Positions 14,299-39,338 of a DNA stretch of 64,000 bases are shown here, in pieces. Location of the stretch: the NCBI GenBank assembly GCA_938050045.1, contig CALLJS010000014.1:1-64000 (forward strand), in the 5' to 3' direction. How positions within the stretch are numbered: position 1 is the stretch's first letter; each line of letters opens with the position of its first letter. Below the pieces are notes generated by a model, which was not told the DNA's origin, did not search any database, and saw nothing but the letters and a program-made list of their open reading frames with translations. The DNA is from an uncultured Sphingomonadaceae bacterium (GTDB lineage Bacteria > Pseudomonadota > Alphaproteobacteria > Sphingomonadales > Sphingomonadaceae). A program made the translations under genes and the position numbers.

Positions 14299-14365
14299 CG
14301 TCATGCTGAATTTATTTCAGCATCCATATTGTAGCAATAGACCCTGAAACAAGTTCAGGGTGACG
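14299..14365. repeat. REP/BIME-like double-hairpin element
   Basis: Hairpin TGCTGAA-tttat-TTCAGCA and hairpin CCCTGAA-acaag-TTCAGGG inside outer imperfect inverted repeat CGTCAtgCTGAA / TTCAGggTGACG. Confidence 0.8.
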
Positions 14366-15194
14366 AATTTTGTTTCAGAAATATCTGCTCTCTGTGATAT
14401 TTCATATATGCTTTTTGTTTTGATGATTGCATGGTAATTTGCATATTCTTATTTAGCTGAAAAACTTTTCTCTCTTCATCCGTAATAATATCAGAGATAA
14501 GGATTGAGCCATCATCCTGAAAACTTATATATGCTTTGTCGAATAGCAAATCATACTGAATTGCTAACAAAAGACCATTATCGCTATCAAGTCGTTCGGC
14601 ATCATTATCGCATTTGCTCCAAGGTTTAATGTGCGAAGCACGCAATAAATCTAATTTATCAACATACGATAATTGGCACTTAGAGTTATGAATTTTAGCA
14701 AGATCATCTCTGAATTTACCTTGCCCAAGGCGTACCTTAATGAGTGCCGATTTCTCGGTTTCCGTTATATTTTGGTTATAAATAGCTGCAATATCAGTAA
14801 CCGTTTCAACTTTACCTGTCAGAAAATCTAATAGCGTTTTGAGTGCATCATAATTATCAATGCCAAAGTCTAAACCATAAGTAGTGGAGTTTATACCATC
14901 ATTGATTTTATTTGGATATGATCGCATCGAAGAAACATGATAAAATTTATTATTTGCTTTGCCTCTTGAGATACCATTTATCGACAATATTTGTTCGATT
15001 CTATTCACAAGATCAGGGTGAATTACTAATGGTTGTTTCTTCACTGGTTTGCGTTCTTTAGTAACACGCTGTTTCACATATATGGTGATGTCGGATTTAA
15101 TATACTCTCTTGTCTTTTTTTCTTCTCCTCGACCCTCAGTCTTTACCCAACCTAGTTTGGGCAACATATCATCAAGATCATAGGAAGTGAGCAT
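14355..15194 (-). CDS. HNH (HNH_2-like) endonuclease
   Basis: CQLSYVDKLDLLRASHIKPWSKCDNDAERLDSDNGLLLAIQYDLLFDKAYISF; start set at MLTSYDLDD just after the coaD stop. Confidence 0.82.
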   Translation of the reverse strand: MLTSYDLDDMLPKLGWVKTEGRGEEKKTREYIKSDITIYVKQRVTKERKPVKKQPLVIHPDLVNRIEQILSINGISRGKANNKFYHVSSMRSYPNKINDGINSTTYGLDFGIDNYDALKTLLDFLTGKVETVTDIAAIYNQNITETEKSALIKVRLGQGKFRDDLAKIHNSKCQLSYVDKLDLLRASHIKPWSKCDNDAERLDSDNGLLLAIQYDLLFDKAYISFQDDGSILISDIITDEERKVFQLNKNMQITMQSSKQKAYMKYHREQIFLKQNSSP

Positions 15195-15198
15195 ATTA

Positions 15199-15675
15199 TC
15201 AAACCTTACCCAAAATATCATCCTGTACCGAGGCGCTGACAAATTTGCTTATGTCGCCGCCAAATTTGGCAATTTCTTTGACAAGGCTGGATGATATGGG
15301 TTGCAATGTAACATCGGACATTAGGAATAGCGTCTCGACATCGCTCGCCATTTGCGCATTCATACCCGTCATTTGATATTCATATTCAAAGTCGATGGAA
15401 GATCGCAAGCCGCGCACCAAGACAGATGCGCCTTGCTGACGCGCAAAATCCACCAGCAATGAACGAAAACCAACCACCTCTATATTCTCGCCAAAGCCAG
15501 ATACCTCACGCCGCACCATCGCAATACGCTCATCATCGGAAAACATCGGCGATTTACTGGCATTGGTGGTGACACCAATCACCAACCTATCCACCAATTT
15601 GCCCGCCCGCGCAATAATATCAACATGACCCAAAGTGATCGGATCAAAGGTTCCTGGATATACGCCTATTTTCAT
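15199..15675 (-). CDS. coaD: Phosphopantetheine adenylyltransferase
   Basis: MKIGVYPGTFDPITLGHVDIIARA, RGLRSSIDFEYEYQM. Confidence 0.95.
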   Translation of the reverse strand: MKIGVYPGTFDPITLGHVDIIARAGKLVDRLVIGVTTNASKSPMFSDDERIAMVRREVSGFGENIEVVGFRSLLVDFARQQGASVLVRGLRSSIDFEYEYQMTGMNAQMASDVETLFLMSDVTLQPISSSLVKEIAKFGGDISKFVSASVQDDILGKV

Positions 15676-34974: not shown

Positions 34975-35355
34975 TCATCCATCATATTGGATCACAATTT
35001 TTTGCGCTGCATCTGCCGCCAATTTTCTGGCTTGATTGCTATCGCCATTATCGCAGCGCGCTAGCGTCACACCCATACGGCGATACGGCCGCGAAACGGG
35101 TTTGCCAAAGATGCGAATATCCGCATGATCGCTCTTTGATATGCGCAAAGCGTCTGCCAGACGCGTATATGCAAAATCATCGGAATCCCTATCCGCCAAT
35201 ATCACAGCACTTGCCGATGCGCCTCGGCATTGGATAGGCGGAATAGGAAGGCCCAATATCGCGCGCGCATACAAATCAAATTCGCTTAAGTTTTAAGAGA
35301 TTAAAGTCACCATCCCTGTATCATGCGGGCGCGGCGAAAGTTCAGAAAATATAAT
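34975..35355 (-). pseudogene. purT: purT C-terminal remnant (formate-dependent GAR transformylase), 5'-truncated, with an internal stop
   Basis: Continuous minus frame [52 protein letters not shown]...RIFGKPVSRPYRRMGVTLA; stop TAA at 35293-35295 where PurT proteins have Gln. Confidence 0.85.
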
Positions 35356-35606
35356 CCTGTGCTGCGCTTGTTGAAGGAAATATTCCCAAAAAGAATTTCC
35401 ATTTGTTCCTTAAGGTTTGTTTCTTAAAGAATGCGAATGGAGGTTATGGGCCGCCAGACCGGCTCTTGAAAAATATGAAAAAATGGATAAAAATACTAGA
35501 ATAATACAATAAATCTCCTATGCTAACTCCTATAATTTATAGTTGTTTGGATATTCAACAATAAACAATATAGTAAAAATAGTTTTTATAGGAGTAAAAT
35601 TTAATC

Positions 35607-37931
35607 ATTAACAATCCACAAAGCCCCTCATTCTCTTTATACGCTGAGTACTTAGGGCCGATATTTAAGCTTGAGGAAACCCTATCAAAATACGGACAGA
35701 ATTTGATTTTTGCTCGTAATGGTGTTGGTAAATCTTTCCTCTCACGCGCGTTCTATTATCTTGATCTTCACAAACAGGGTAAGAAAATTGACGATGCAGC
35801 ATTTAATCTAGTCTCTGAAGAATCCCCCAATGCGCAAGCGAAACTGATATTCCGACACGGAAACGATGTGCTTGGTTCATTGGATTTGAACAAAATTACC
35901 ACGGCTGTATCGGCTGCGTGTAACGATACAATTTTTCATGTTTTTTCAGACGACTTTGTACAGACAGAGTTAAGGGTAAATAGGTTTAAGATAAATAGTG
36001 ACATCCCGAATGAAATTGCGGTCGATAGTGACAAAATTGATCTTAAAGATGCCCAAAAGGCAGTGAATAAGGCAGATAAGGCTCTTGAAACCAGCTTGAA
36101 ACAGCTTTCCGAACAGTTTACCAATAGCAAAGAGCAGAAACTCGTTCACCAAGCTAATGTAAATCGCAATTTACGAGAATTTCGCGATATTACATTTGAA
36201 AAGCTAGGTTCTAGTTTCCCAACCAAACCAGAAGCACCAGCCAAAACATTTCAAGATCATGTGACAGAATTGGATAAGCTCAAATCTGTGCCAACTGATC
36301 CAAATTGTCCAAATTCACTGAGTGAAATTGAATATGCAGCTCTTGAATTATCAATTCTCAAAGAGCAACTTGAGCTTGAAACTTCCCTGTCATCTGTAGC
36401 CGAGGAAGTAAAAGCAAAGATTGAAAAGGATACCGAATTTTACAGAGCTGGCATCAAGCATACTCATGAACGGCAAGACGAAGTGTGTCCATTTTGCGAG
36501 CAGGACGTTAGCGCTGCCGAGCCAAAGGCAGTAATTGAAGCTTATATTGCGTATTTCGACGACAATGAACAAAAGCACAAACAGGCCCTCAGTCAGTGTT
36601 ATAAGCGTATTACAGCATTTGCAGATACTATAGACAATTTCCGAAAAACCAGTAACTCACAGCGTAAACTCTTTGACGATCTCAAGGCGTATTTCCCATC
36701 AACAAAATCAGATATACTTTCTGATGTTGAACAGAACTGTCTTGCGATTGAGCAAGCCATTGAGTCACTTAAGTCCACCGTTGAGAAGAAAGCTGATAAT
36801 CTCGCTAATGCCATTTTATATGATATAGCGACGTTGGAGAGTTTAGTGGCCCAATTAAATGATATTATCATTGCCAATAATGTGCAAGTGACTGAGCTTA
36901 TCACAATTACTCAGAAAGTTGATGAAGAGAGAAAAACCCTACAGCGCGGTGCATGTCGCGTTTTCCTTGTCGAATTTGCCATAGAATATTGGGAGCAGCT
37001 TGAAGCTTTTGATTCCTATCAAATTGCAGCTCGGGAGAAAAAAACAGAATTGGCAGCGGCTGAGAAACGCCAACCATCGACGCAAGCTAAGAAGAGGGTC
37101 GCAGATACGTTCAAGCTTGTTTTGAGGCATTTTTTTGCCGAGAAATATACGTTTGACGAAGATGAGTTTGTTGTCAAACGGGATCACAAGACAATGTCGA
37201 GAGGCCCTGATCGGACCCTGAGCGATGGAGAAAAAACCGCACTGGCCTTTTGCTATTTCATCGCCTCAATCCATCGAAAGGTAGCAGCAAATGCGGATTA
37301 TAAAAGGCTATATTTGGTCTTTGATGACCCTGTCACATCAATGTCATTTGATTATGTCTTCGCTATTGCTCAGGTGTTGAAAGATTTGGGTATATCTAAT
37401 CAGGGCGACATAGAAATTAATGCCAAAAAAATAGCAAAAAACAAAATCGCAAGGCCAAAGCTCTTAATGCTGACACACAGCAGCTATTTTTTTAACATCG
37501 CTAAGAATAATAGGGTGGTGAAGTCTGAGGCCGCTTTCTCACTTTCAGTATCGCAGAATAAGCATCGGATACATTCTGCACACACATATGTGGCCCCGTT
37601 CAAAGACCAACTTAGAGACATTTATGAAATTGACAATGGTACAAAAGAGCCTGATCATCACACAGGCAATTCTATCAGGTCAGTACTAGAGGCAATCGGT
37701 AGGTTTTGTCAGCCAGATGAGTGCGACCAGTTTACAAACTTTCTTTCATTTCTCATTGCATCAGATGATATTCAAATAAAAGGCACTATGATAAATTCTA
37801 TGAGCCATGGAACATATGTTGAAGAAACGCCGACCAACGAAGATATCAAAATAGCTTGCCGTGAGACTCTGTTGGTTGTCAAAAAATATGCGAAGGGCCA
37901 GCTTGCGGTCATTGAGAAAGAAGTGCAATAA
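35607..37931 (+). CDS. RloC/PrrC-like AAA_13 ABC-ATPase with zinc-hook, putative anticodon nuclease (start codon uncertain)
   Basis: Walker A NGVGKS, zinc-hook-like CPFCEQ in coiled coil, LSDGEK signature, Walker B LVFDDP, MLTHSSYFF, RSVLE plus INSMSH; homology-like N-terminus runs upstream of the track TTG start (35703) to the TAA at 35595. Confidence 0.75.
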   Translation: MNNPQSPSFSLYAEYLGPIFKLEETLSKYGQNLIFARNGVGKSFLSRAFYYLDLHKQGKKIDDAAFNLVSEESPNAQAKLIFRHGNDVLGSLDLNKITTAVSAACNDTIFHVFSDDFVQTELRVNRFKINSDIPNEIAVDSDKIDLKDAQKAVNKADKALETSLKQLSEQFTNSKEQKLVHQANVNRNLREFRDITFEKLGSSFPTKPEAPAKTFQDHVTELDKLKSVPTDPNCPNSLSEIEYAALELSILKEQLELETSLSSVAEEVKAKIEKDTEFYRAGIKHTHERQDEVCPFCEQDVSAAEPKAVIEAYIAYFDDNEQKHKQALSQCYKRITAFADTIDNFRKTSNSQRKLFDDLKAYFPSTKSDILSDVEQNCLAIEQAIESLKSTVEKKADNLANAILYDIATLESLVAQLNDIIIANNVQVTELITITQKVDEERKTLQRGACRVFLVEFAIEYWEQLEAFDSYQIAAREKKTELAAAEKRQPSTQAKKRVADTFKLVLRHFFAEKYTFDEDEFVVKRDHKTMSRGPDRTLSDGEKTALAFCYFIASIHRKVAANADYKRLYLVFDDPVTSMSFDYVFAIAQVLKDLGISNQGDIEINAKKIAKNKIARPKLLMLTHSSYFFNIAKNNRVVKSEAAFSLSVSQNKHRIHSAHTYVAPFKDQLRDIYEIDNGTKEPDHHTGNSIRSVLEAIGRFCQPDECDQFTNFLSFLIASDDIQIKGTMINSMSHGTYVEETPTNEDIKIACRETLLVVKKYAKGQLAVIEKEVQ

Positions 37932-38076
37932 TTGGGTGACTGAGCTTTCACCCAGCCACCCACGCCTTAGATAAGGAGTGTCGTTTGGCTACCCTCTGCG
38001 CTCCAGTCTTAACTGAAGCCAGTCCACTCTGTTTGGGCCAAGTTGAAATGAGTAAAGCACAATCTCATTAAGCTGA

Positions 38077-38298
38077 CACGTCGATAATATCCGCATCGCA
38101 ACATTCTCCAGCTTCGCAGGCGCAGGCCTTGCCGTCGTCGGCTCGGTCTGGCGCGGACGGCAGGCCAAAAGACTCACCACTAATGAGGCATCCCGCTGGT
38201 CAAACACGCGCGACTTAATACGCGCTGGACTTTTTAATTCAAGTGGCATCTTTCTCGGCCGTACAGAAAAGAATTATCTGCGTCATGACGGGCCGGAG
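38077..38298 (+). pseudogene. VirD4/TraG conjugal coupling protein fragment (N-terminal part)
   Basis: Start-less frame: FAGAGLAVVGSVWRGRQAKRLTTNEASRWSNTRDLIRAGLFNSSGIFLGRTEKNYLRHDGPE, then family similarity ceases; Walker A region absent. Confidence 0.65.
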
Positions 38299-38460
38299 CG
38301 TGAGAATAATCCGTTCCGTTATGAACTGGCACTAGGTTTTGCTGCACAGAGGGGAGCGTTTAATTATGCGCAATTCATACAAAGTCAGGCCGCAGGCATT
38401 GACCCCGCCGTATATTTGCCCAGCGACCCTGATGTTAATACCCTAAATAAGGAAATACAG

Positions 38461-39185
38461 TCAATTCGAAATACGTTCACCAATATCCTTGTAAACTCTC
38501 CAAAGGCCCATCCGCTTAATTCTATATTCGACAAGCTCTGGCGAAGCTCTAGATATTTCGCCAATTTGTGACGCGGATTGTCCTTGTCGGACATAATCTT
38601 CAACTGACTCCGCCGGAAGCAGTGTTGTTGAAGCGAGGTAAAAGGCGTCATGCTCTTCGGAACTTTCATAAGTGCGTCCGTAAGCATTTCCAATCTTGGC
38701 TACTTTCGTAAGTTTGTGCCTTAGGAATATGTGCCAACAAGACTAGGGTCGACATTCTTAATCTCAGAGGGAACAAAAACCGCGACGCCCTCAATTTGCA
38801 GCCCTAGCGCGTTGAGTGGATCAACATTTGTTAGGTAGAGATCCTCGCGTAACGAAGAGGCCATATCTTCCATTTCTGGTTTAGACAAAGAGAGAGCAGG
38901 ACCTTCACCGCTATCAGAAACGGGAGTTGAATCGCTCGTTTCTGGGTTATTTTTCCAATATCCGTTTTTAAGTGATTGAACGATAGTCAATAAGCACTCA
39001 GTCGTTTTAGATCGGACATTCTTCGAGGCCCGAAAATGTACCAAAGCGACATTTTCCATTTTTAGGCCTGCATCAGCTCCGTCAGCGCCCAGCCAATTCA
39101 AAATCCTTATCAGCGAATTATTATCAGGCTCGCCGACACCCCTCTCGATTCTTGCGAGCGTTGAAAAGCTCTTACAGATTCGAAG
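38461..39185 (-). pseudogene. XRE-ImmA/IrrE-type regulator/protease remnant, 5'-truncated and frameshifted
   Basis: Minus frame FSTLARIERGVGEPDNNSLIRILNWLGA...DPLNALGLQIEGVAVFVPSEIKNVDPSL; other frame IFLRHKLTKVAKIGNAYGRTYESSEEHDAFYLASTTLLPAESVEDYVRQGQSASQIGEISRASPELVEYRIKRMGLW; no HExxH. Confidence 0.6.
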
Positions 39186-39338
39186 TCATGGGCCTTTGAC
39201 TAAAATGGGCCTCATTTTTGGAATGGAAGATTTATAAGTCATTAAAAATAAAAAATATTTTAATTTTCACGCTCTTGGCCCGCTCCAATTATCATAAATT
39301 GATAGCATGATGTGACGCTGCGATAGCCGCATGACCGT

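Follow-up and report, generated by a model that had tools for sequence, protein, structure and literature searches.

A probable RloC-family gene encoding a zinc-hook ABC-ATPase and a putative anticodon-nuclease domain in an uncultured Sphingomonadaceae bacterium

Both characterised branches of the anticodon nucleases, PrrC and RloC, cleave tRNA anticodons. The hallmarks of RloC, a family of stand-alone suicide enzymes in bacteria, are anticodon cleavage with excision of the wobble nucleotide and control by DNA breaks and zinc, and RloC is among the few known enzymes thought to connect the sensing of DNA breaks directly with the destruction of tRNA. In the sequence definition of Davidov and Kaufmann, RloC is a split, hook-bearing ABC-ATPase followed by an R-x3-E-x36-52-H motif in a protein of 658-897 aa (PMC2610378). 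The His of this motif often follows a Ser. The literature that we found characterises only two members, and the enzyme of Acinetobacter baylyi cuts tRNA-Glu and tRNA-Gln (studied RloCs: PMC2610378, PMC3874168). The nucleases of PrrC and RloC have been placed in the HEPN superfamily (PMC3710099), and a recent survey includes RloC as a defence system of a single gene that stops translation (PMC12322248).

A gene in a 64,000-nucleotide stretch of Sphingomonadaceae DNA (the window) was originally predicted to encode an RloC-type nuclease. Its reading frame runs uninterrupted through 774 codons, and a position check on the translation placed every motif named in the original prediction where it had been read. 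The gene and its ATPase and hook motifs are as follows.

35607..37931, + strand: predicted RloC-family gene, 774 codons plus stop (Pfam and PADLOC matches, alignment of relatives)
35712..35735, + strand: Walker A, ARNGVGKS (position check)
36486..36497, + strand: zinc-hook motif CPFC, between long helices (position check, structure model)
37218..37235, + strand: ABC signature, LSDGEK (position check)
37314..37331, + strand: Walker B, LVFDDP (position check)
37476..37478, + strand: switch histidine H624, invariant (alignment, position check)

When the whole protein was compared with Pfam, it matched AAA_13 (E=5e-36), as the original prediction had anticipated. The top PADLOC model is PDLC04898 (E=1e-129, residues 9-772), and the PADLOC PrrC model also matches the C-terminal part (E=6e-14). 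PDLC04898 represents PDC-S06, a candidate single-gene defence family of AAA_13 type that the protein resembles over its full length; however, this is a broad candidate label covering several unlike clades. No NCBIfam model matched the protein, a PDB sequence search yielded no true relative, and a profile search of the PDB gave coiled-coil artefacts only.

Relatives were drawn from 31 genome loci, five plasmid records and one sphingomonad genome. A scan of genome contigs with the single protein found no relatives, and the 31 loci were recovered from genome contigs with a five-sequence alignment as the query. Viral contigs held no relatives, and phage records gave only two weak partial matches. 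Nearly all relatives come from alphaproteobacteria, with two from Bacteroidota, and the 23 proteins that were aligned share about 25-48% identity with the window protein. In a tree of 41 proteins, the window protein groups within an alphaproteobacterial clade distinct from other AAA_13 clades; the sister group of this clade is the two Bacteroidota proteins. The clade is widespread yet sparse, and often plasmid-borne: the gene occurs in 2 of 401 genomes of the order and 4 of 385 of the class, and relatives are found at various places in chromosomes or on plasmids that are conjugative or mobilisable. No experimental data on this clade were found in the literature.

The ATPase and hook motifs (Walker A, CPFC, signature and Walker B) are invariant or nearly so among the 23 aligned proteins. 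Residues G41, K42, C294, C297, S539, G541, D573, D574, H624, R691, E695 and H734 are identical in all of them. Conservation of the hook is more than a search artefact because 15 of the relatives, all of which carry CPFC, mismatch the hook search pattern and were retrieved by another pattern. The last three invariant residues belong to the putative nuclease domain.

37569..37928, + strand: C-terminal nuclease domain, all-helical, residues 655-774, homologous to the PrrC C-domain (profile alignment with PrrC, structure model)
37677..37691, + strand: R691-x3-E695 of the anticodon-nuclease triad, R691 at 37677 and E695 at 37689 (alignments)
37806..37808, + strand: H734 of the triad, preceded by Ser (S733) (alignments)

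The window protein reads R691-x3-E695-x38-H734, and the E-to-H spacing is x36 to x38 in relatives, inside the published range of 36-52. The bare motif is at chance level, since R-x3-E-x36-52-H occurs once in the protein and 0.99 times on average in shuffled copies, 58% of which have at least one. The case was therefore built on conservation and alignment. For comparison, four PrrC genes were taken from sphingomonad genomes, each directly adjoining hsdS and one also adjoining hsdM, with the hsd genes identified by reading translations. When the profile of the clade was aligned with that of the PrrCs (probability 96.6, E=6.8e-10), R691, E695 and H734 fell opposite the R, E and H of PrrC. The original prediction would have been undermined by a misalignment at these positions, and the residues instead correspond column for column. 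It is this correspondence, together with invariance in the 23 aligned proteins, that lifts the triad above chance. In a joint alignment of the 41 proteins, a single divergent sequence departs from the R/E and H columns; the long proteins all carry CxxC, which PrrC lacks. PrrC shares the AAA_13-type ATPase and the triad columns, but it is a hookless, hsd-linked protein of about 400 aa, whereas the window protein has 774 aa, carries CPFC and has no hsd gene in the window.

These comparisons support an RloC-type reading, both by the AAA_13 match and because R, E and H occupy the columns that hold the anticodon-nuclease residues in hsdS-linked PrrC. At the level of sequence, the window protein displays every feature by which RloC was defined, including a length within the published range (PMC2610378), and assignment to the family is based on that motif definition and on the PrrC comparison. 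It resembles the RloCs of Geobacillus kaustophilus and A. baylyi in its coiled-coil-split ABC-ATPase, CxxC hook, R-x3-E...SH triad, size and solitary location (PMC2610378, PMC3874168), but it lies in a diverged alphaproteobacterial clade and has ATT in place of a start codon. We consider it very probable that the gene is a member of RloC, with a Rad50-like ABC-ATPase, a CPFC zinc hook and a fused PrrC-type (HEPN-superfamily) ribonuclease that, by analogy, would cut tRNA in response to DNA breaks. As such it is an alphaproteobacterial example of a known family and individually ordinary.

A full-length structure model (pLDDT 83.7) has an ATPase head, long helices flanking the hook and an all-helical C-terminus, with low confidence in the region of H734. 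The top PDB fold matches of the model are Rad50, SMC heads, Lamassu LmuB and retron/Septu PtuA, and neither PrrC nor RloC is among the fold matches listed. A separate model of the C-terminal domain is likewise all-helical; it has no significant PDB fold match, and several HEPN chains are among the sub-threshold matches. These data are compatible with a HEPN assignment of the nuclease domain. The Rad50/SMC-like head raises the alternative that the protein serves in DNA repair or maintenance as an ATPase of the SbcC/Rad50 type, without nuclease toxicity, in which the likeness to R/E/H is fortuitous. A motif expected about once by chance in a protein of such composition is in keeping with this explanation, as are the Mre11/Rad50-like pairs that adjoin some relatives. 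However, although Rad50 and SbcC share the head fold and zinc-hook coiled coil of the model, they lack a C-terminal ribonuclease domain (PMC2610378), their partner nuclease being Mre11/SbcD. Invariance of R, E and H, their alignment with PrrC, and the patchy, mobile distribution (4 of 385 genomes of the class) also argue against a repair role, which we regard as highly improbable.

A different alternative keeps the nuclease but changes its substrate, such that the C-terminal domain of this AAA_13/Rad50-like ATPase would target mRNA, rRNA or another nucleic acid and not the tRNA anticodon. We judge this unlikely, as the triad aligns with that of PrrC and both characterised branches act on tRNA anticodons. 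The depth of the clade, the C-terminal model without a significant PDB match and the variety of RNAs cleaved by HEPN-type ribonucleases (PMC3710099) nevertheless speak for it.

By analogy with characterised RloCs, from which a DNA-break trigger, ATP coupling, zinc control and tRNA cleavage may be extrapolated, an RloC of this kind might act as follows. Two zinc hooks would most likely join via zinc, and the ATPase head would bind DNA ends such as the double-strand breaks that arise when a phage degrades host DNA. ATP hydrolysis by the DNA-bound head would release the C-terminal nuclease, and the freed nuclease would cut a host tRNA in its anticodon loop and stop translation. This arrest would end the infection but sacrifice the cell.

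Whether this particular copy is expressed is doubtful because it lacks a standard start codon, and ATT at its first position is the sole real peculiarity of the gene.

35590..35594, + strand: AGGAG, likely ribosome-binding site, 12 nt upstream of ATT (read directly)
35607..35609, + strand: ATT, probable non-standard or lost start (closest relatives carry ATG there)

The in-frame sequence after the upstream stop reads AAT TTA ATC ATT, and there is no ATG, GTG or TTG between that stop and the TTG at 35703 (residue 33), so either ATT is used or the start has been lost. Initiation at TTG 35703 would delete the first strands of the ATPase head. In the closest relatives, ATG occupies exactly the place of ATT, and standard starts lie near the N-terminus in all the full-length relatives that were examined. 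ATT is a rare but accepted bacterial initiator (table 11); if used here, it presumably initiates at low efficiency, and it may also reflect a sequencing error. No close relative with the gene, by which the change to ATT could be timed, was found in the genus.

These observations bear on the possibility that the window copy is a start-lost or barely translated relic in which ATG became ATT and which survives passively amid mobile-element debris; this is compatible with the RloC identity of the protein but would mean that the copy does not work. The exact coincidence of ATT with the ATG of relatives, the long (12-nt) AGGAG spacing, the broken purT, traG and HTH/ImmA pieces nearby and the annotation of at least one relative as two overlapping genes all favour a relic. 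Against it, the 774 codons are uninterrupted, all catalytic residues are retained, and ATT is an acceptable, if rare, initiator. The low predicted expression of RloC genes, some of which have GUG or UUG starts (PMC2610378), also counts against it. We view decay as a serious possibility, though one towards which we do not lean. The split relative is a homologous gene of Roseobacter denitrificans plasmid pTB1 (locus L005, 8001-10326), and the overlap of its two annotated genes is frameshift-like.

The gene lies in an inserted block bounded by broken and displaced sequences.

34975..35352, - strand: purT C-terminal remnant (the corresponding locus of the sister genome G072 has an intact purT of 394 aa)
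35353..39278, no strand: inserted block of 3.9 kb, from the broken purT to a photolyase gene, non-syntenic in the sister species (synteny comparison)
38095..38298, + strand: traG fragment (conjugal transfer, virD4-like)
38464..39185, - strand: decayed remnants of an ImmA/IrrE-like peptidase and an XRE-type HTH protein (weak matches)

On the left, synteny extends as far as 35352, the counterpart in G072 being the region that holds the intact purT of 394 codons. The window copy of purT breaks off at 35352 with its C-terminal part alone left, and no second purT copy was found in the source genome. Synteny with G072 returns at 39279 with the photolyase gene, which in G072 is about 250 kb from purT; the inserted block thus marks a rearrangement point. 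Low gene frequency, plasmid settings of relatives and location in an inserted block fit with horizontally moved defence cargo.

As predicted originally, no hsdRMS genes surround the gene anywhere in the window, and a profile search of the source genome for N6_Mtase gave four matches, each partial and all outside the window. However, the accompanying hint that this 'orphan' status is novel proved wrong, because only 8 of 72 RloCs in the founding paper are linked to restriction-modification genes (PMC2610378) and A. baylyi RloC reacts to DNA breaks in restriction-modification-deficient cells (PMC3874168). A solitary location is the norm for the family.

Pairs of Mre11/SbcD-like and Rad50/SbcC-like genes, in three arrangements, adjoin the RloC-like gene at five of about 34 clade loci (L004, L005, L006, L008 and L009) and at none of eight other AAA_13 plasmid loci. 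Such a pair was considered as a defining partner and rejected. It is regarded as defence-island company and not as part of a fixed system because it is rare at the loci, occurs in other plasmid clusters without RloC, and is absent from the window; its Rad50-like part was not found in the source genome in a search run without a positive control. A bolder proposal, which we consider distinctly improbable, holds that the sequences form a deep RloC clade of alphaproteobacteria that has a tRNA target of its own, with at least one copy kept at very low expression by ATT as a safety catch and some members fed DNA ends by an adjacent Mre11/Rad50-like pair. The clade supplies diverged, mobile and often plasmid-borne alphaproteobacterial RloCs for probing tRNA targets and triggers.

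Several further observations concern neighbouring genes. A reverse-transcriptase defence gene adjoins the RloC-like gene at three related loci (L011, 12758-14431; L023; L029), between traG and T4SS genes; that of L011, the only one scanned, matches PADLOC RT-Protease_XI. The traG-T4SS interval of related elements is probably a cargo hotspot. Elsewhere in the window, at 14355-15242 on the - strand, a lone gene that reads as an HNH-type endonuclease overlaps the end of coaD in housekeeping surroundings. The source genome also encodes a second PDC-S06 protein (locus L073, C17:208000-222000) of 874 aa, with a CVLC hook and a possible R-x3-E-x51-H motif, whose gene adjoins a large methyltransferase-like gene and an AbiEi/AbiEii pair in a small defence island.
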